A stretch of DNA of 24,981 nucleotides from a virus: IMG/VR virus record IMGVR_UViG_3300024979_000019, positions 1 to 24,981 of that record, one strand, 5' to 3'. The notes below the pieces were generated by a model that was not told the DNA's origin, searched no databases, and worked only from the letters and a program-made list of their open reading frames with translations. This document shows, one piece after another, positions 2,874 through 24,981 of the stretch. Each line of letters starts with the position of its first letter. Positions within the stretch are counted from its first letter, which is position 1. A program made the position numbers and the translations under genes.

Positions 2874-4799
2874 TCAATAATTCACATTATCTTCAAATAC
2901 CTTATCAGTCTGATATATACCTTTATACAATGGTTCACTCGAAAGTAAAGCTTCTCTTCTACCTTCATACCCGCTATTCCTATCTCCATACCCAACCGTT
3001 TCAATATTATTCAAACATACCTCACCAAACCAATCATCTACTCTAACATGCTGTTTTAATCTATTACCAAGATTACATGTAACACCAATGAATAGAAGAG
3101 TTTTATTATGGTCGTAGAGTCTATATACAACATAAGGAGCGTTTTGAACTATGTTATCAAACGTAGCTATTGTTTTCATCAAATTATCTACTTCTTCCAT
3201 TTCTCCTTCATCAAGTTCCTCATACTTGTCGAACATACTTTTCAAATACCAAGGATATTCCACCTCTACTTGTGCTCTTGTCAACGACACATAAAGTAAA
3301 CAGAGTAGACTCTCAGTCTCATAGAGTCTTTCAACTGCATCCTGTGTAGTTTCATCATCCATGATAACAAGAAAATCATCATCAATAGTAACGTGAGCAT
3401 ACTCCATTCCTTTAGAAGCATGACATGTAGTGATTACAATGTCAGCTTCTTCCTGTGTCTTAACAAGACTCTTCTCAAGGAGTTGCTTTGCTTGCCACAA
3501 GGTTCTCGTCTTCACAAGACTCTTTTGTAAACGTAGTAGTCTTTGGAGTTCATCAGAGTATTCAACTGCTTTCTCTAAGCTCTCTCTATCAACTATATGT
3601 GAAAGCTCTTTACAAGGGTATTTTGGAAGATTGTTATAATAACATGCTTCAAGATGAAATAGTTTACTGAATACTTCTGAAGTATTAATACTAGTATAGA
3701 TAGATTTGCCAGAGTCAATGTTATCAAATATCCTCTCTACCACACTAGCATTTGTTCTACAAAGAATCGCTCTACTATCTATCTCAGTTTTACTCCCTGA
3801 ACCAACAATCCTTAGGTCTGCTTGCAGTGCCTCAAGAACTACATTCGCTTTATCTGCAATACCTTGGTTGAATCGGAAACTCTCCGTCAGATACCCTGTA
3901 GTGAAATCACTATAGTACGGTAATTTCATCATATCATTAGCACCTCTCCAAGCATAGAGTTGCTGGTTCGGATCTCCTACAATGATACGTTGTAAGTGTG
4001 ATTGCCTACGGAAGATACTCTCCATTACAGGATTCGTGTCCTGACTCTCATCGAGACATAGTACATCCACACTAACATAGGCTTTAGCCCTATCATCCCA
4101 TACTTCATCTACAGATATTTCTCTAAGATCATAGAGTTTTAAGTATACATCATGTGTTATTTTTGCAGGATGGTTAGAATTAATAAGATTATTCCAATAA
4201 GTCTTTACATTGTCTACTAAAGCTCTAATAATATTGTCTTCTAGTATAAGTCTTCCTATATTCTCTTCAGGAGATTTACTGCTGAAAATATAAACTAATC
4301 TATTAAGGCTAAATGTGTCTATATCAATAGCACTAGAACGACAAAAATACTCTACCGTCTGCAAGACTTCTTTTGTGATAATTCTAATATTATCCTTCCA
4401 TTCCTTCTCACTTTCTCCTTGAGGAGCAAATTGATATAAATAGAACTCTTCCAGATCACTATAAAGTAGTCCAGACTTAGAGAGTTTATTCCTCATCTTA
4501 TAGTCCATGATTGCGCGGTACGCTAGACTATGGCCTGTTGAATAGACAATATTCTCTGGTCGCTCCGCATGAGTATTGCTCTCTTTAGCATTTGCAGAAT
4601 TGAAACAAAGTACAAGGAATGATTTCTCAGAATAGCAGGATGCGATGTATCGAAGAGAAGAACTCTTACCACTTCCAGCTCCAGCTACTATCTTTATATC
4701 CTTTCCTGCAAGAACTAAGTCTTTGTTTGCAACTTGCTCTGCTGTAGGTGTGAAAGATTTTATTTCTTGTGTCTGTATAACTGGTTTTTTAAATGCCAT
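2874..4799 (-). CDS. SF1 (UvrD/Rep-type) DNA helicase fused to a C-terminal GIY-YIG-like domain
   Basis: This 641-aa protein has the full set of SF1A helicase motifs: Walker A AGAGSGKS (about 39-46), motif II DESQD (about 247), motif III GDPNQQLYAWRG (about 272), motif IV SFRFNQ (about 304), motif V TTCHASKGMEYAH (about 455) and motif VI LLYVSLTRA (about 498). It should be an ATP-driven 3'-5' translocase acting on DNA. The last 90 residues differ: VVYRLYDHNKTLLFIGVT followed by NRLKQH matches the GIY-YIG nuclease core (xxY, about 10 residues, xIG, then conserved Arg), with a later Glu. The start ATG has AGGAG 6 bases upstream. KSLVKT occurs twice (about 424 and 440). The helicase call is near certain; nuclease activity of the tail is inferred. 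Confidence 0.95.
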   Translation of the reverse strand: MAFKKPVIQTQEIKSFTPTAEQVANKDLVLAGKDIKIVAGAGSGKSSSLRYIASCYSEKSFLVLCFNSANAKESNTHAERPENIVYSTGHSLAYRAIMDYKMRNKLSKSGLLYSDLEEFYLYQFAPQGESEKEWKDNIRIITKEVLQTVEYFCRSSAIDIDTFSLNRLVYIFSSKSPEENIGRLILEDNIIRALVDNVKTYWNNLINSNHPAKITHDVYLKLYDLREISVDEVWDDRAKAYVSVDVLCLDESQDTNPVMESIFRRQSHLQRIIVGDPNQQLYAWRGANDMMKLPYYSDFTTGYLTESFRFNQGIADKANVVLEALQADLRIVGSGSKTEIDSRAILCRTNASVVERIFDNIDSGKSIYTSINTSEVFSKLFHLEACYYNNLPKYPCKELSHIVDRESLEKAVEYSDELQRLLRLQKSLVKTRTLWQAKQLLEKSLVKTQEEADIVITTCHASKGMEYAHVTIDDDFLVIMDDETTQDAVERLYETESLLCLLYVSLTRAQVEVEYPWYLKSMFDKYEELDEGEMEEVDNLMKTIATFDNIVQNAPYVVYRLYDHNKTLLFIGVTCNLGNRLKQHVRVDDWFGEVCLNNIETVGYGDRNSGYEGRREALLSSEPLYKGIYQTDKVFEDNVNY

Positions 4800-4808
4800 G
4801 ATGTTCTC

Positions 4809-4901
4809 CTAGTATTCTCTATCTTTCGCAGAAGCAAAAGGTATTTGTTTTACAATACTTGCTGTAAGTTTCTTCTTTGTTGTTACGAGTTCAATTTCCA
4901 T
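4809..4901 (-). CDS. 30-aa peptide, ELVTTKKKL motif, possibly truncated
   Basis: A strong AGGAGA precedes the ATG, and the ORF encodes a basic peptide beginning MEIELVTTKKKLTASIVKQ. I recall this opening from a small uncharacterised phage family whose members are longer, so this could be a truncated member. It overlaps the end of the 87-aa gene by 11 bases and stops 9 bases before the helicase ATG. Function is unknown. The good ribosome binding site and lack of gaps argue that it is translated. Confidence 0.5.
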   Translation of the reverse strand: MEIELVTTKKKLTASIVKQIPFASAKDREY

Positions 4902-7058: not shown

Positions 7059-7361
7059 ATGCTTGCATTAATGGCTAATATAGAAGATACCCAATTTAAT
7101 GCTTTAAGAGGAGAGAATACATGGAAAATAACACAATGTTGTCCACGTACTGGAAAAGTACTAACAATAGAAGCTACTGATGAAGAATTTGCGGCTACTT
7201 TAGCTTTAATGATAGGAAGAGATAGTTTAGAAGGAAGTGATAACCTTTATCCGATTGCAGAAAGTTTAGTGAAAAAACAAATAAAAGCTATTAAAGGCTG
7301 TTCTGATATTACAAGTACAGAAGAGCAAGAATTTATTAATTCATTTAGGATGATCCCATAA
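7059..7361 (+). CDS. Hypothetical protein, 100 aa, first gene of the rightward operon
   Basis: The ATG at 7059 has GAGG 7 bases upstream; an internal ATG five codons later lacks a site. I do not recognise the protein. It has a compact N-terminal part with a Cys-Cys pair (ITQCCPRTGK), a Thr/Glu-rich strand (LTIEATDEEFAATLALMIGR) and a C-terminal helical, acidic tail. As the first product of the rightward operon, it may act on host takeover, but that is inference from position only. Confidence 0.7.
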   Translation: MLALMANIEDTQFNALRGENTWKITQCCPRTGKVLTIEATDEEFAATLALMIGRDSLEGSDNLYPIAESLVKKQIKAIKGCSDITSTEEQEFINSFRMIP

Positions 7362-14024: not shown

Positions 14025-14498
14025 ATGTGCAGGAAAGATGAATATTATCCAACACCCTCATGGTGTTATGAACAGCTTCCAATTGACTTTAAGCAATTTA
14101 CATTAGCCTTAGAACCCTGCAAAGGTGATGGTCGTATTGTTAAGTTTTTAGAAAGTAAAGGATTAACTGTAGAGTGGGCAGAATTGTCATTGGGTATAGA
14201 TTATCTAAAGACTCCATACACTAATATAGATTTAATATTAACCAATCCACCTTTTAGTAAAGCTATACAATTTTTCGATAAAGCTATCTTAGAAGCTAAT
14301 ACTGTTATAATGCTACAACGTTTAAATTACTTAGGTAGTCAAATAAGATTTAATTGGTGGAAAGTTAATCCACCCTCTGGACTTATTGTATTAAGTAAAC
14401 GCCCAAGTTTTATAAATGGTAAGACGGATTCAACTGAATATTGTTGGTATATTTGGGATAAAACAGCTAGAACACCTAAAGGAATACACCATATATGA
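14025..14498 (+). CDS. DNA N6-adenine methyltransferase, Dam-type (157 aa)
   Basis: DEYYPTPSW at the N terminus, LEPCKGDGR (SAM-binding motif I, about 29-37), then ILTNPPF (motif IV, about 73-79) are the marks of a small adenine methyltransferase like the phage Dam family (PF05869). The end has LSKRPSF and STEYCWYIWDK, also typical. AAGGT precedes the ATG. It lies between the polymerase relic and the working polymerase gene and ends with an ATGA overlap to the latter, so it may have arrived with it. A role in protection from restriction is the usual one. Confidence 0.85.
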   Translation: MCRKDEYYPTPSWCYEQLPIDFKQFTLALEPCKGDGRIVKFLESKGLTVEWAELSLGIDYLKTPYTNIDLILTNPPFSKAIQFFDKAILEANTVIMLQRLNYLGSQIRFNWWKVNPPSGLIVLSKRPSFINGKTDSTEYCWYIWDKTARTPKGIHHI

Positions 14499-16453
14499 TC
14501 AATAGAATAATTCCAAAAAGACAGAAAGATGTAATGATCATAAATGATGTTCCAGTTAAAAATGAGATTAATCTAGGAGAGAAGTTTTCTGCTATTTCAA
14601 ACATGAACCTACTTAAAGCATTTCGCCTAGGTTGTCTTGACATCTATTCTGGAACTACTGATAAGACTTTACCAAACATAACATATAAAGACATTTATAC
14701 AACATATCTTGACTATACCTACTATGGTGAAAACGAAGTTGAGAAGAACTTTGACTTTTGTAAAGAGTTTAAGAAACGAAAAGACCTTGTAGAGGACTTT
14801 GACAAGCAATGTCTTGTTGATAAAACTAATCCTGAAATCTCTTATATAAAACTAGAACATCAGAAAGATGTATTTGTTTCCCAAAGATTATGGATGGAGT
14901 TTAAAGGACTTCTTGAAGAAATAAAAGCTTGCTCCCCTAAGATAATTATCTGTACAGGTAAATGGAGTCTATTCTTCCTTACAGGGTGTGCAAGCCTTAC
15001 AGCAAATATGAGTAAACCTGGAGAACCTAAACCTTTAGGAGCATTAGCAAAATTCCGATCTTCGATATTGCAAATAAATGAAGTCTTTGACGTATCAAAC
15101 GAACATATTTTAGTTCCAATCTACCACACGATTCATTCTATCTCTATGCCAGACAAGGCATATATAATGGATTTAGATATTCAGAAAATCTGTTGGATGT
15201 ATCAACAGAGTAAAGATGTTGGAATAGATTACTACATACGTCCAGAGAAAGAATATATTATAGGAGACACAAAAGAAAAAGCACTTGAATATTTAAACGA
15301 GTTATGTAATATCTTAGATACTAAAAAAACTTTAGTTTCAATAGATATTGAAACTTTCTTTAGGTCTACAATAGATTGTGTAGGTTTTGCTTATGAAGTA
15401 AATCGTGGATGTTGTATACCTTTTGCAGCTAAAGATAAATCAAGTTTATGGAGTATTGAGGACGAGATAGAAATTCTTTGCAAGATTAGAGAAGTTCTTC
15501 TACATCCAAACTGCTTACACATTGGACAAAATTATCAATACGACTGCCAGTATTTTTATAAACTTTGGGGATTGCATGTTAAGCCAACACATGATGCAAT
15601 GGTTTTACACCATTTACTCCATAATAAAATGCCTAAAGATTTAGCTTTTCTAGCAAGCTTATACTGTGAAATTTATACATATTGGAAAGGTGAAATTGAC
15701 GGAACTAAAGAAAATCCAGAAACTCGTTGGATATATAACTCGAAAGACTGTTGCTACACACTTGAAGTTCTTTTAGTTATCCTTGATATTCTTGAAGGTA
15801 TTGGTGATAAAGAATTACAAGAACTTTATCAGTTTCAAATGAATGAACTCCATCCTGAACTTGTAGAGACAATGAATGTTGGGGTGAAGGTAAATAAAGA
15901 TATGAAGGAGGATTTGTATAATTTCTTTAAATCTATGCTTTTACAAGTTCCAGATAAGATAAATGAAATACTTGGATTTTCCTTTAACTCTAACTCTACA
16001 CCACAAAAGAAAAAATTGTTTAAAGAGTTCTTTGCAATTGATCTCAAGACAAATAAGAAAAAAGGTAAAGCTGAAGTAGAAACTTGTGATGCTAAGGCTA
16101 TGCTTGCCTATATGGAAGAATATCCATTGCTAAAACCTTTTCTTGGAGTTCTACTTGAGTTCTCTGCTCTAGGAAAGTTTACAAACACATTCTTAGGAAT
16201 GAAATTAGACTCTGATGATAGAGCTAGAACACAGTATAGAATAACAGGTACAGCTTTTGGTAGACTTGCATCAACTAAGAATGTATGGGGAGGTGGTGCT
16301 AATTTTCAAAACTTACCTGAAAAGGGAAAGATACCAATATATTATATTTTGCAGCTACTTCAAGGAATTTCTACCGAGGATTCATCCGAAGATAGTTTAG
16401 AATTTATACAAAATCTTGAGATAATAGAAGGAGCTGATTATGGTGAAATGTAG
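14495..16453 (+). CDS. DNA polymerase, N-terminal piece: UDG-like, 3'-5' exonuclease and start of family A domain
   Basis: This 652-aa ORF is SPO1-type. Residues about 50-232 resemble family 4 uracil-DNA glycosylase (PKIIICTGKWSLFFLTG about 148-164; PIYHTIHS about 208-215), without evidence for uracil activity. A DEDDy exonuclease follows: D284/E286 (SIDIETFF), N345/D350 (GQNYQYD) and Y414/D418 (YNSKD). The polymerase domain begins and reaches GRLAST and ANFQNLPEKG (about 602-611). The last 41 residues do not look like polymerase, and the palm motifs A, B, C are missing; they lie in the ORF at 16892. A two-gene insertion breaks the gene. The start overlaps the methyltransferase stop; a weaker AAGGA is 11-12 bases upstream. 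Confidence 0.93.
   Translation: MINRIIPKRQKDVMIINDVPVKNEINLGEKFSAISNMNLLKAFRLGCLDIYSGTTDKTLPNITYKDIYTTYLDYTYYGENEVEKNFDFCKEFKKRKDLVEDFDKQCLVDKTNPEISYIKLEHQKDVFVSQRLWMEFKGLLEEIKACSPKIIICTGKWSLFFLTGCASLTANMSKPGEPKPLGALAKFRSSILQINEVFDVSNEHILVPIYHTIHSISMPDKAYIMDLDIQKICWMYQQSKDVGIDYYIRPEKEYIIGDTKEKALEYLNELCNILDTKKTLVSIDIETFFRSTIDCVGFAYEVNRGCCIPFAAKDKSSLWSIEDEIEILCKIREVLLHPNCLHIGQNYQYDCQYFYKLWGLHVKPTHDAMVLHHLLHNKMPKDLAFLASLYCEIYTYWKGEIDGTKENPETRWIYNSKDCCYTLEVLLVILDILEGIGDKELQELYQFQMNELHPELVETMNVGVKVNKDMKEDLYNFFKSMLLQVPDKINEILGFSFNSNSTPQKKKLFKEFFAIDLKTNKKKGKAEVETCDAKAMLAYMEEYPLLKPFLGVLLEFSALGKFTNTFLGMKLDSDDRARTQYRITGTAFGRLASTKNVWGGGANFQNLPEKGKIPIYYILQLLQGISTEDSSEDSLEFIQNLEIIEGADYGEM
16315..16332 (+). 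repeat. Left short direct repeat bordering the insertion in the polymerase gene
   Basis: The bases acctgaaaagggaaagat here match acctgaaggaaagat at 16918-16932, with a three-base difference in length. Both encode Pro-Glu-(Lys)-Gly-Lys-Ile in the polymerase reading frame of their own ORF. Deleting DNA between the shared cct-gaa codons would join the two ORFs in frame into about 863 residues. This is compatible with a duplication at insertion or with recombination using microhomology. Confidence 0.65.
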
Positions 16454-16733
16454 TAGAATAAAAACTAACTACATGGAGGACTCAAAATTTAATACAATTT
16501 TTAGAAACAAACAATACTTAGTTTATCCAGGATTTGTAATAAGTAAAACCGACAAAGATAAACATTACATAGGTTTTAAAGAACTTTGTAGACTTTATAG
16601 AGTCCATCATAGTCTTTGTATTAATTATGATAATCTAATGTTGGTGGATAAACAGCGGGTACAAAACTTAGGGCTGATAGAGCTTAGACCAGATTATCAT
16701 GGGAACTACATTATAAATAGAAATAGGAGTTGA
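16440..16733 (+). CDS. Small phage protein inserted in the polymerase gene, 97 aa
   Basis: The ATG overlaps the end of the polymerase N-terminal ORF and has AAGGAG 6 bases upstream. The C-terminal half, KDKHYIGFKELCRLYRVHHSLCINYDN then LIELRPDYHGNYII, resembles a common small phage protein whose usual form is HYIS...LxxLYGV...CII...HLxPRxxGxY (family remembered). It has no LAGLIDADG, GIY-YIG or HNH motif, so it does not look like a homing endonuclease. Function is unknown. Confidence 0.75.
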   Translation: MVKCSRIKTNYMEDSKFNTIFRNKQYLVYPGFVISKTDKDKHYIGFKELCRLYRVHHSLCINYDNLMLVDKQRVQNLGLIELRPDYHGNYIINRNRS

Positions 16734-16891: not shown

Positions 16892-17689
16892 ATGCAAAGT
16901 AACTACGTCACCTACTCACCTGAAGGAAAGATTCTTCTGCCAAATATCAAACGTATCTTCCTTCCAGATGAAGATTACGAAATAGCTGATGTAGACTTAT
17001 CTGGAGCTGATATTCAAGTAGTAGCAGCGGATAGTGAATGTAAATGGCTTCTTGATTTCTTTGCTAGTGGGGAGAAGAAGAAAGTATATGCTTATATAGC
17101 GAGTGAATACTTTCAAAGAGATATATCAGACAAGTCTGATGAATACAAGATGTATAAAGGTGTCTTTCATGGGACAAACTATCTTATGGGAGTAAAGAAG
17201 CTAGCTTTAATGGCTGGAATACCTTTTAAACTCGCTCAAGGCCTACAAGACTTCTACTTTCAACTTAACCCAGAGATACGACAATGGCATAAAAGGATTG
17301 AAAATGACGTTAAGACTAAAGGATATGTGAGAAACAAGTTCGGCAGAAGAATGGAGTTCTGGATAACAAAAAATAATCCTACAGTTATGACTGAGGTAGC
17401 CGCAGCAATACCTCAGTCAACAATTGGTGATGTAATTAACCGTGCATGGGTAAGGATTAGAAAAGAACTGTACTATGAGAGAAAAGATAAATCTATTGAT
17501 GGTGTGCATGTACTTATGCAAACACATGATAGTTTAACATTACAATACCCTTTTGAAATAGCGGAACTATGTAGAAGAAGAATACCTGAATTGACTGTTG
17601 TACCAATACCTTATAACCCACCATTGCTTATTGGAGCTGATATAAAGGTTTCGAGAGTATCTTACGGTGATACGAGTAAAATTAAATAG
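16892..17689 (+). CDS. DNA polymerase, C-terminal piece: family A palm and fingers
   Basis: The 265-aa ORF begins at the first ATG after a stop at 16883, with a weak GGGGA upstream. It contains motif A VDLSGAD (Asp 35), motif B YKMYKGVFHGTNYLMG (about 106-121) and motif C QTHDSL (H212, D213). The acidic residue after motif C Asp is Ser instead of the usual Glu, and motif A has DLSGADIQ in place of DYSQIELR, as I recall for some other phage polymerases. It lacks the thumb and exonuclease, which are in the ORF ending at 16453. The two pieces would need to associate to work. SPO1-like polymerases elsewhere are single chains of about 900 residues. Confidence 0.9.
   Translation: MQSNYVTYSPEGKILLPNIKRIFLPDEDYEIADVDLSGADIQVVAADSECKWLLDFFASGEKKKVYAYIASEYFQRDISDKSDEYKMYKGVFHGTNYLMGVKKLALMAGIPFKLAQGLQDFYFQLNPEIRQWHKRIENDVKTKGYVRNKFGRRMEFWITKNNPTVMTEVAAAIPQSTIGDVINRAWVRIRKELYYERKDKSIDGVHVLMQTHDSLTLQYPFEIAELCRRRIPELTVVPIPYNPPLLIGADIKVSRVSYGDTSKIK
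16918..16932 (+). repeat. Right short direct repeat bordering the insertion in the polymerase gene
   Basis: The bases acctgaaggaaagat correspond to 16315-16332 and encode Pro-Glu-Gly-Lys-Ile (residues 10-14 of the C-terminal piece). They are in the same codon phase as the left copy. In an intact polymerase I would expect about NFQNLPEGKILLPNIKRIF across this point, which is what joining would give. Confidence 0.65.
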
Positions 17690-20693: not shown

Positions 20694-21537
20694 ACCACAA
20701 AAAGTACTCTCTTTAAAGGATGAACTTGCAAAGAAAAAACCAAAACTACAAGGAGAATATATACTTACTGAAAAAATAGATGGTTGGTATGTGTATTTTG
20801 AATATATTAATGGAGTATGGCATACTCCTAAAAGTTCCGCAGGTAGACCTATTCCTGCATTTGAATGGATGGATTTAACTACGTTACCAAAATATAACTC
20901 AGATGCAGTTCTTATTGCAGAAGCATACATACCAGACTGCCCATTCTTCATTACGAATGGGATTTTCAACCGTAGTATAGGAGATTATCATTGTAAAGAT
21001 GTAAAATTCATAGTTCATGATATAGTCCAAAATGATTATCTTCAACGAGCTAATGTACGTTTTCAACACACTTTTAGGTTTGAAGAACTTAGATACTTTG
21101 ACAGACCTGAAGTTCTTCTGCTATCAACATATAATGAGAAACTATGGTTAAAGACTTTCGAGTCTGTAGTTGAAAACAATGGTGAAGGTATTGTAGCAAA
21201 ACGTGTTGATAGTTTTTATTCCCCTGGAAAACGTAACGCAGACTTATTGAAGTTAAAACTTGAGTGTACAATAGATGCACTTGCAGTGAGACTTGAAGAA
21301 TCAATTGGAGATAAAGGACTTACGGCATTGACGTTAGTATCTCAACGTGCTAATGGTATAGAGATTCGCACGGTGATTGGAAAACATGAAGATCAGAAGA
21401 GGTTTAAAGAAGACTCTACGAGTATTATTGGTAAGGTTGTAGAAATTAAAGGTATGGAGGTATATGATGATGGTCAGGTACGCCAGCCTGTGTTTAAACA
21501 TGTAAGAGAAGATAAAAGAATAGGAGATATAGATTGA
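20671..21537 (+). CDS. ATP-dependent DNA ligase, small phage type
   Basis: Motif I KIDG (Lys 35, adenylated), VKFIVHDI (motif IIIa region, about 111-118), EGIVAKR (motif IV, 172-178) and LLKLK (motif V, 192-196) identify a covalent nucleotidyltransferase. From about residue 200, a beta-rich C-terminal OB-fold (CTIDALAV... GKVVEIKGMEV) is present, as expected for a DNA rather than RNA ligase. 288 aa is a small but complete form. ATG at 20683 (residue 5) has GGAAC upstream and may be the true start. It seals nicks in phage DNA. The stop overlaps the next gene start. Confidence 0.93.
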   Translation: MEHVMIFKPQKVLSLKDELAKKKPKLQGEYILTEKIDGWYVYFEYINGVWHTPKSSAGRPIPAFEWMDLTTLPKYNSDAVLIAEAYIPDCPFFITNGIFNRSIGDYHCKDVKFIVHDIVQNDYLQRANVRFQHTFRFEELRYFDRPEVLLLSTYNEKLWLKTFESVVENNGEGIVAKRVDSFYSPGKRNADLLKLKLECTIDALAVRLEESIGDKGLTALTLVSQRANGIEIRTVIGKHEDQKRFKEDSTSIIGKVVEIKGMEVYDDGQVRQPVFKHVREDKRIGDID

Positions 21538-22172
21538 AAATTGAGAAAAAGATAATCGGATACAAAGTTCTTACAGAGAAAGATAAAGAGAATCTTCTAA
21601 CAATAGAACCAGTTATTCAACGAACTAAAGTTCTCTTAACCCGACCAGAAGTCTTATCTGGAACAACCTATAAAATTAAACCACTTGTCCTTCAACATGG
21701 ATTATATATTACGATAAACAATATAGTTGTTGAAGACAAAGTCCTTCCCTATGAACTTTTTATCTCTTCAAAGAATGTGGAACTATTCCATTTTATGGAA
21801 GTATTGTCTTTAACAATAACTACGTTATTTAGACTTCAACAGGATATTACACATTTACTCGAAGAGTATAGTGATATTCCTGCTATGGGTGGAGACTATT
21901 GGGGAAAACCTAAAGTTAAAGGTGAGAAAGGCAAATTTTATAAAAGTTTTATAGGAGAGATTGCAGATATTATAAAAACTCATATTGATGGTTTAGCTCT
22001 ACAAGAAACAAAAGTTTCTTTTGAAGAGATTGAAATCGTAGATGTTGCAGACGTTGAATATCCAGAGGAGCAAAGTAAAATGTTACTTTGCCCAGCATGT
22101 AATACAAGAAATGCTCTTATGTTAGATGGTTGTCTAACATGTACAAGTTGTTATTATAGTAAGTGTGGATAG
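21534..22172 (+). CDS. Hypothetical protein with C-terminal zinc ribbon, 212 aa
   Basis: The start is TTG at 21534, supported by AGGAG 7 bases upstream and an overlap with the ligase stop. The body is unrecognised, mixed alpha/beta with a GGDYWGKPKVKG loop. The last 30 residues, CPACNTRNALMLDGCLTCTSCYYSKCG, form a cysteine-rich zinc ribbon like the C-terminal tail of B12-dependent (class II) ribonucleotide reductases, as I recall that family. No reductase domain is seen, so this is a shared tail only. Function is unknown. Confidence 0.75.
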   Translation: MKIEKKIIGYKVLTEKDKENLLTIEPVIQRTKVLLTRPEVLSGTTYKIKPLVLQHGLYITINNIVVEDKVLPYELFISSKNVELFHFMEVLSLTITTLFRLQQDITHLLEEYSDIPAMGGDYWGKPKVKGEKGKFYKSFIGEIADIIKTHIDGLALQETKVSFEEIEIVDVADVEYPEEQSKMLLCPACNTRNALMLDGCLTCTSCYYSKCG

Positions 22173-22206: not shown

Positions 22207-22887
22207 ATGTCAAAAGCATATATAGTAGATACAGCGACAACAGGTCTTATTGAACCAATACAACCAATTGAGATGGCTTGGTTAGAACTTACAGAAGATT
22301 ATAAGGTTTATGATAGTTTTCTAAGGCGTTATCGTCCAAGTAAATCTATAGAACTTGGAGCATTGGCTACATCACATATTATGGATGAAGATTTAATAGA
22401 TCAAATCTCCTATACGCAAGCAGAGCATGACCTTCCAAAAGATATTACTTATATGATCGGGCATAATATAGACTACGATTGGAAGGTTCTTGGAGAGTCT
22501 AATGTAAAACGTATTTGTACTAAAGCATTGTCCCAACATCTATGGCCGGGACTTGATTCATATTCACAAAGTGCTTTGATTTACTATCGTTACAGATCTA
22601 TTGCAACAGATCTTTTGAAAAATGCGCATAATGCTTTAGATAATGTCTATAGTAATCTTAATCTTCTTACAGAGATAATTAAAGAAGTAGGTCAAATATC
22701 TTTTGAGGAACTCTGGGAACTTTCCGAACTAGCACGAGTACCTAAAACTATTTCTTTTGGTAAGTTTAAAGGTAAACCTTACACAGCATTAGATTATGGT
22801 TATATTCAATGGTGGCTTACTAAGAGTGATACTCCACCAAATGAGTATCAATTAAAAGCACTTCGTGCCGCAGGATGGACGGTATGA
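22207..22887 (+). CDS. ExoX-like DEDDh exonuclease with altered Exo I motif
   Basis: The N-terminal DnaQ-fold has Exo I DTATTG (residues 8-13), where the normal motif is DTETTG, so the second acidic metal ligand is Ala 10. Exo II GHNIDYD (H86, N87, D91) and Exo III HNALD (H141, D145) are intact. The last 45 residues (SFGKFKGKPYTALDYGYIQWWL) match the C-terminal extension of E. coli ExoX, so it belongs to that subfamily. Loss of the Glu may reduce catalysis. The stop overlaps the next ATG (ATGA), tying expression to a second exonuclease. Confidence 0.85.
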   Translation: MSKAYIVDTATTGLIEPIQPIEMAWLELTEDYKVYDSFLRRYRPSKSIELGALATSHIMDEDLIDQISYTQAEHDLPKDITYMIGHNIDYDWKVLGESNVKRICTKALSQHLWPGLDSYSQSALIYYRYRSIATDLLKNAHNALDNVYSNLNLLTEIIKEVGQISFEELWELSELARVPKTISFGKFKGKPYTALDYGYIQWWLTKSDTPPNEYQLKALRAAGWTV

Positions 22888-23516
22888 TTAAAGTATATAT
22901 CCTCGATACAGAGACTACTGGTATAGGTAAAACCGATGACGTAATAGAAGTTTCTTATAATAAATTAAGCTCTCTCGAAGAAGAGTTAGATATTTTTAAA
23001 AGTTCTTCAATTGCAAATTACAAGGAATATTTTCTTCAAGATGTAGTCACAGAAAGATTCTTCCCGTCTATGCCAATAAATGAATTTGCTTTTAATTGTC
23101 ATGGTATAAGAAGAGCAGAACTTGCTGGAGAGAGACATTCAAAATTTGTTGATATACCAGAGGTAGATTACCTTATCGGGCAAAATATCCCTTTTGATGT
23201 AAAAATGTTAGGACAATCTAATAGTGCAATAAAAGATAGACTTTCAACTATTAAACTTATAGATGCAATTCCATTAGCAAGAGCATTAAATAAACATCAA
23301 AGCTTAGGGTTAGAAGCCTTTAATCTTGATTACCTTGTGAAGACCTTCTTTCCAGAAGATAAAGAATTACTTTTCTCTAAATATCATTCTTCTTCTTTAG
23401 ATATTCTACGAACTATGGTTGTACTTTTTAAACTCATAACTCCATTAGAGAATGTACGAACATGGGAAGAATTATCTAAATTACAAACAACACTGAAAGG
23501 AGTAAAAAAGAAATGA
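22884..23516 (+). CDS. Second DnaQ-fold exonuclease with normal Exo I and altered Exo II
   Basis: The ATG at 22884 overlaps the upstream stop and is preferred to one 9 bases earlier. Exo I is intact (DTETTG, D8 and E10). Exo II is GQNIPFD, with Gln 100 where many members have His and Asp 105 retained. Exo III is YHSSSLD (H168, D173). 210 aa. It differs from its neighbour by lacking the ExoX-like tail. Probably a 3'-5' exonuclease in replication or host DNA degradation. The stop overlaps the Dam gene start. Confidence 0.85.
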   Translation: MIKVYILDTETTGIGKTDDVIEVSYNKLSSLEEELDIFKSSSIANYKEYFLQDVVTERFFPSMPINEFAFNCHGIRRAELAGERHSKFVDIPEVDYLIGQNIPFDVKMLGQSNSAIKDRLSTIKLIDAIPLARALNKHQSLGLEAFNLDYLVKTFFPEDKELLFSKYHSSSLDILRTMVVLFKLITPLENVRTWEELSKLQTTLKGVKKK

Positions 23517-24477: not shown

Positions 24478-24878
24478 TTAAAATTCCAACCTACCAAGAA
24501 GTTTCAGAACGTATAGCAAAGTTTGAGGAATTTACAGAAGAAGGAGCAATACCAGAACTACCTAGATATTTTGTAGATCGTATAGATAGTTGGACTCCTA
24601 TGTTTAAAAAACATGGAATTGATCCTCCAACTCCTCTTGATGTCTTTATCTATGAAGAAGAACCAATAAGTCTATCTTCTAAGAAAGATTTCTACAAGAA
24701 TCTATCAAACATGCTTGCATATGTAGTTGAAGTTGAGACAGAAAAACATAGAAAGACTATCTATGATTTAATGGAGGAAAAAGAAGACTTAGAAGAAAAG
24801 ATATTTATTAAGAATATAGCATTACTTGGGATTTTAGTATTAATGTTATATAAGATACTCTCCGCCACCTTCCTCTAA
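24474..24878 (+). CDS. Hypothetical protein with C-terminal membrane anchor, 134 aa
   Basis: The protein has a polar N-terminal domain, a probable coiled coil (residues about 85-112, TEKHRKTIYDLMEEKEDLEEK) and one C-terminal hydrophobic helix (IALLGILVLMLYKIL). It would be tail-anchored with the bulk in the cytoplasm. The last eight codons, including the stop, lie inside the terminal inverted repeat, so its natural C terminus depends on how real that repeat junction is. Function unknown. Confidence 0.65.
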   Translation: MIKIPTYQEVSERIAKFEEFTEEGAIPELPRYFVDRIDSWTPMFKKHGIDPPTPLDVFIYEEEPISLSSKKDFYKNLSNMLAYVVEVETEKHRKTIYDLMEEKEDLEEKIFIKNIALLGILVLMLYKILSATFL

Positions 24879-24981
24879 TCCCATCCGTTTCCTAGTATCG
24901 TACAAACTAGGTCAACTTCATTCTATCTTACAGATTCTACCTACAACTACACAACTTCATTATATAGTATTCCGCTCACAT
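24855..24981. repeat. Right copy of the 127-bp inverted terminal repeat
   Basis: This is the exact reverse complement of 1-127. Its first 13 bases (24855-24867) reproduce the tRNA-Ser(GCU) 3' end with CCA on the plus strand, without the rest of the tRNA. The last 24 bases of the terminal gene lie in it. No further gene is present after 24878. Confidence 0.97.

Follow-up and report, generated by a model that had tools for sequence, protein, structure and literature searches.

An FBH1-like phage helicase with a predicted C-terminal GIY-YIG domain in which half of the active-site residues are replaced

The window, which denotes the whole 24,981-base virus record that was analysed, is rich in replication and nucleotide genes. 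Besides the gene described below, it encodes a Dda-like helicase, an RNA ligase, a Sak4-like protein, DNA polymerase A, dUTPase, thymidylate synthase, DNA ligase and exonuclease-like proteins. Leftward genes span 6818 to 503, and rightward genes diverge from them, beginning at 7059. The "early leftward operon" of the first-pass annotation stands as far as this leftward run and its divergent neighbours are concerned; promoter-like matches occur at chance level in the promoter scan (33 counted, 31.2 expected by chance).

The ends of the window carry an exact 127-bp inverted repeat (1-127 and 24855-24981). A related 40-kb contig, IMGVR_UViG_3300024982_000007, contains a 7.75-kb inverted repeat with 7 mismatches (L140 1-7751, L141 32389-40139) that flanks the same unique region, and the 127-bp repeat of the window is the inner edge of this longer one. 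The 7.75-kb repeat may be a pair of genuine long terminal inverted repeats or, 127 being a common k-mer length, an artefact of assembly. The family A DNA polymerase is seemingly split into two ORFs (14495-16453 and 16892-17689, covering PHROG_17 positions 482-990 and 996-1234); a small PHROG_7644 gene (16440-16733) lies between them. A 212-aa ORF (21534-22172) matches only the C-terminal end of the ribonucleotide reductase large subunit (PHROG_84 positions 800-973) together with PHROG_23565. Two adjacent, overlapping genes (22207-22887 and 22875-23516) both match PHROG_192, the DNA polymerase exonuclease-subunit family, which suggests a tandem duplication.

The gene under study is a minus-strand ORF of 641 aa that begins with ATG and has no internal stop. 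It is composed of the following parts:

2874..4799, minus strand: entire ORF, FBH1-like SF1A helicase plus predicted GIY-YIG fold; the same full-length ORF is found in contig L002 (98% identity)
3225..4757, minus strand: helicase core, residues ~15-525, motifs I-VI complete (PHROG_1967, Pfam, FBH1 matches, AlphaFold)
3141..3224, minus strand: linker of ~28 residues, residues ~526-553, largely helical at low confidence in the AlphaFold model
2910..3140, minus strand: predicted GIY-YIG domain, residues ~554-630 (Pfam PF01541, PHROG_3312/16880, AlphaFold, Foldseek)

An assembly or frameshift artefact is an unlikely source of this ORF, as L002 (L011 is the same contig) differs from the window at 45 of the 1926 bases of the gene and yet keeps its frame and size. 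The fusion is seen only in these two near-identical records, whose samples may not be independent.

Residues ~15-525 form the motor. This region matches the "DNA helicase" family PHROG_1967 at 1.1e-63 and Pfam UvrD-helicase at 9.8e-18, and its AlphaFold model has a pLDDT mostly above 90. All motifs are in place:

4662..4682, minus strand: motif I (Walker A), GAGSGKS, residues 40-46
4038..4052, minus strand: motif II (Walker B), DESQD, residues 250-254
residues 275-287: motif III, GDPNQQLYAWRGA
residues 306-310: motif IV, ESFRF
residues 457-467: motif V, TTCHASKGMEY
3273..3296, minus strand: motif VI, LYVSLTRA, residues 502-509

In addition to motifs I-VI, the two-RecA core and the invariant family columns of SF1A UvrD/FBH1-like helicases are all present. 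FBH1 (F-box DNA helicase 1) is the top PDB match both by sequence (2.8e-22) and in the Foldseek search with the helicase model (4e-31), where UvrD, Rep and PcrA rank below it. The motor is a complete FBH1-like helicase of the UvrD family (SF1A), not a Rep or UvrD protein proper; the completeness claimed in the first-pass annotation is borne out, and its "UvrD/Rep-type" label is right about the family. Motors of the FBH1-like and UvrD-like families travel along single strands in the 3'-5' direction and remodel both forks and intermediates of recombination. Membership in the Gabija system as GajB was considered and rejected, the GajB profiles aligning to stretches of the helicase core only; no GajA-like profile match was found among the leftward neighbours scanned with Pfam and PHROGs. 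A sister helicase of 868 aa (L014 6007-8613) has an apparent intein in motif II, as read from its sequence (ILDE/CLTATQ...VIVHN/CQDSN).

Several independent lines of evidence place the C-terminal tail in the GIY-YIG superfamily. When the last 98 residues are scanned alone against Pfam GIY-YIG (PF01541), they score 24.1 bits, above the curated cut-off of 22.6; the score is 23.5 bits in the genome search and 21.5 bits, just below the cut-off, within the whole-protein scan. Among the PHROG endonuclease families, the tail hits 3312 as well as 16880, both in the range of about 7e-10 to 8e-10. A profile built from stand-alone viral relatives, with the window left out, scores it at 58 bits (the E-value of this match applies to a search of two sequences). 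The AlphaFold model of the tail, made with 15 sequences, has a beta-beta-alpha-(alpha)-beta-alpha core with a pLDDT of about 90, consisting (in domain numbering) of strands 13-19 and 25-31, helices 34-44 and 46-50, strand 56-61 and helix 64-77. In a Foldseek search of the PDB, the leading matches are GIY-YIG domains of UvrC (TM up to 0.64 with 1yd6, probability 1.00, E about 3e-3), followed by a plant Grx N-terminal domain and UPF0213, and a GIY-YIG-type fold is common to all of the first 11 matches; against viral models, annotated GIY-YIG endonucleases come out on top. A chance match was rejected, since the independent profiles, the window-free profile and the fold search concur. The GIY-YIG fold of the tail is settled as far as prediction allows, and the proposal of a C-terminal GIY-YIG extension is upheld in both its profile and its fold. 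The extension had been put at about 85 residues, with 550-641 as the stretch to examine; the core proper occupies residues ~554-630 and follows the ~28-residue linker. Structural residues L26, G29, T31, R37, H41, W47 and P80 (domain numbering) are conserved in the tail, so the fold appears to be maintained.

The catalytic positions present a different picture. Six active-site columns were compared between the fused domain and 21 aligned stand-alone relatives, in which the residues are Tyr, Tyr, Arg, His and Glu (21/21 each) and Asn (20/21, with Asp in 1/21). The fused domain has Y559, F570, R580, H584, R614 and K626 at these columns:

3123..3125, minus strand: Tyr559, the GIY tyrosine, kept
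3090..3092, minus strand: Phe570 (TTC), replacing the YIG tyrosine
3048..3062, minus strand: Arg580 and His584 of the first helix, both kept
2958..2960, minus strand: Arg614 (AGA), replacing the metal-binding Glu of the last core helix in the HMM alignment
2922..2924, minus strand: Lys626 (AAA), replacing the conserved Asn that follows the last core helix

The profile alignment assigns Arg614 to the Glu column with high posterior probability ("aaEreai" versus "EGRREAL", then "PlyN" versus "PLYK"), and in the domain model this residue sits in helix 64-77, which carries the Glu in the GIY-YIG fold. Conversion of a Glu codon to AGA takes two base changes, and Arg614 is shared by both records. Glu612 and Glu616 lie in the same helix, neither of them at the aligned Glu position.

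Mutational work on other GIY-YIG enzymes bears directly on these replacements. In human ANKLE1, the second-Tyr mutant Y486F is 3,500-fold slower and the activities of E551A and N565D are undetectable; mutation of the Glu in UvrC and SLX1 is likewise reported to abolish all activity (PMC10287932). In the model of R.Hpy188I, the YIG Tyr is a Lys and the Asn a Gln, with the Glu kept (PMC2630997), so two of the three replacements are not absolutely disqualifying. The first-pass annotation had proposed a nicking nuclease attached to the motor, with a possible role as a processive nuclease, in repair or in an attack on host DNA. An active tail would make the protein a helicase-nuclease for repair, end processing or host DNA attack. 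For such an enzyme speak the genuine GIY-YIG fold, the retention of Tyr559, Arg580 and His584, and the proximity of Glu612 and Glu616, one or the other of which might partly assume metal binding; against it, Phe, Arg and Lys stand at three columns that are invariant or nearly so among the relatives, where single changes in ANKLE1 cost from 3,500-fold to all detectable activity and where Glu mutants of UvrC and SLX1 are reportedly inactive. With the Glu lost along with the YIG Tyr and the Asn, an active nuclease is judged unlikely, though not impossible, and the nicking activity is not supported. Of the catalytic residues sought, Tyr and Arg (and also His584) were found and the Glu is absent from its position; absence of these residues had been named as grounds for abandoning the nuclease proposal, and this is largely the outcome, because three of the six are replaced. 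The tail is most likely devoid of nuclease activity.

The distribution of the tail among related helicases suggests how it was acquired. The nearest other helicases, L012 (38% identity) and L014 (39%), stop no more than about 16 residues beyond motif VI and lack a GIY-YIG domain, suggesting that the tail is a late addition; L013 (44%) is cut by the contig end before its C-terminus and is uninformative in this respect. Among the best 80 viral helicase loci, the tail is present only in the near-identical contig (L002/L011), and a clade-specific viral scan for fused relatives returned L011, L012 and L013 only, with no further fusion. From the side of the nuclease, not one of 95 GIY-YIG loci (many being the same contigs twice) combines the domain with a helicase motif in a single ORF, the longest open frame being 401 aa. 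The genome collection yielded no relative of the whole protein and only two relatives of the domain, whose ORFs both lack helicase motifs. These scans relied on short conserved stretches and are non-exhaustive, and within that scope the viral and genome collections contain no second phage instance of the fusion. Overall, a stand-alone phage GIY-YIG domain most likely joined this helicase in a recent, lineage-specific event.

Other FBH1-like phage helicases (L016, L022, L029, L030, L042, L043, L073, L074 and L081) have differing C-terminal extensions of about 100-190 aa, some of them with Cys pairs resembling zinc-binding motifs; these extensions give no confident Pfam match. As family members often carry unrelated extensions, the helicase C-terminus seems to tolerate add-on modules.

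Comparison of the window with L002 reveals 37 changed codons, of which 32 fall in the first 79 codons (4563-4799) and none in the tail. The related contig is also devoid of about 90 bp immediately upstream of the helicase start (window 4800-4901). The pattern resembles a sharp recombination boundary near the gene start. The two records are too similar for selection on the tail or its long-term maintenance to be tested.

These observations also bear on the main alternative for the function of the tail, namely that a free-standing, homing-type GIY-YIG gene became joined in frame to the helicase gene at its 3' end and is now an inactive, functionless relic in decay. The relatives of the domain are indeed stand-alone phage endonucleases, decay predicts loss of the active site, and the apparent intein in the sister helicase L014 implies that mobile elements target this helicase gene family. 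The structural residues and the open frame are nevertheless intact, the fold is predicted with high confidence, and the domain codons are unchanged between the two records, even if that pair is too close to reveal selection. Such a relic is considered rather unlikely.

The fusion protein shares features with several known systems. FBH1 and the phage FBH1-like UvrD helicases (PHROG_1967) have the same motifs I-VI and align across the whole motor. Human FBH1 bears an F-box at its N-terminus and, unlike the fusion protein, has no GIY-YIG domain. Leaving aside the near-identical contig, each viral helicase examined terminates at motif VI or shortly beyond it, has an unrelated tail or is truncated by a contig end. 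Stand-alone phage GIY-YIG endonucleases (PHROG_3312/16880, including the mycobacteriophage "G-I-Y Y-I-G endonuclease") are about 23-35% identical to the tail over the domain and have the same predicted fold, but they are encoded by genes of their own without a helicase motif, and they keep the Tyr, the Glu and the Asn or Asp. The N-terminal GIY-YIG domain of UvrC is the best PDB fold match of the tail; UvrC differs in having the full catalytic set and, elsewhere in the protein, UvrB-binding, EndoV and HhH parts. AddAB, RecBCD and AdnAB, which are among the fold matches of the motor, also combine a UvrD-family motor with a C-terminal nuclease-type domain, but are large multi-subunit enzymes whose nuclease is of the PD-(D/E)XK kind. 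GIY-YIG-DUF2075 fusions may exist as well, although no paper in the literature searched describes them.

A parallel in domain order is Tlr8p of the Tetrahymena Tlr1 polinton-like element, in which an SF1 helicase is followed by a C-terminal GIY-YIG domain (PMC1564403; PMC3671162). Tlr8p belongs to a eukaryotic element, is ~1340 aa long and has extra N-terminal regions. A fusion of an SF1 helicase with a GIY-YIG domain is already known from Tlr1. In the titles and abstracts of the literature searched, a phage helicase-GIY-YIG fusion is absent.

In the preferred reading, the protein is an FBH1-like 3'-5' helicase for recombination or fork remodelling whose pseudo-nuclease tail tethers or orients DNA, and this reading is probably correct. 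A phage FBH1-like SF1A helicase would have gained a C-terminal GIY-YIG domain that retained its fold and lost its nuclease activity. By homology to FBH1 and UvrD, the motor would travel 3'-5' along single-stranded DNA, and the structures that it remodels during phage replication and recombination would be forks, D-loops or recombinase filaments. The tail would probably serve as a DNA-contacting module, holding or orienting branched or double-stranded DNA beside the motor. Of this, the analysis shows the presence of both domains, the intact helicase motifs, the predicted fold, the three replacements among six active-site residues and the lack of a tail in the closest relatives sequenced. Possible metal binding by Glu612 or Glu616 counts against this reading, as does the net charge of the GIY-YIG domain, which is about zero, uninformative in itself and no argument for DNA binding. 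A more specific version, in which the captured nuclease, catalytically dead, now reads branched DNA and loads or positions the motor, is plausible but tentative.

The neutral charge would also suit a protein-binding adaptor, in which the pseudo-nuclease tail docks a partner such as a phage recombinase or nuclease instead of DNA, and the Sak4-like protein, the exonuclease-like proteins and the DNA ligase of this phage are possible partners. GIY-YIG folds otherwise act on nucleic acid, and an adaptor of this kind is quite improbable. A DNA-contacting tail is preferred over a non-functional relic, and the active nuclease ranks third, with little probability attached to it.

Helicase-nuclease fusions are usually taken to be processive nucleases. 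Here, the active-site columns reverse that reading, the fold being present and the chemistry probably gone. Should the tail have kept DNA binding, the protein would be a case of a nuclease fold reused as a reader of DNA structure on a motor.
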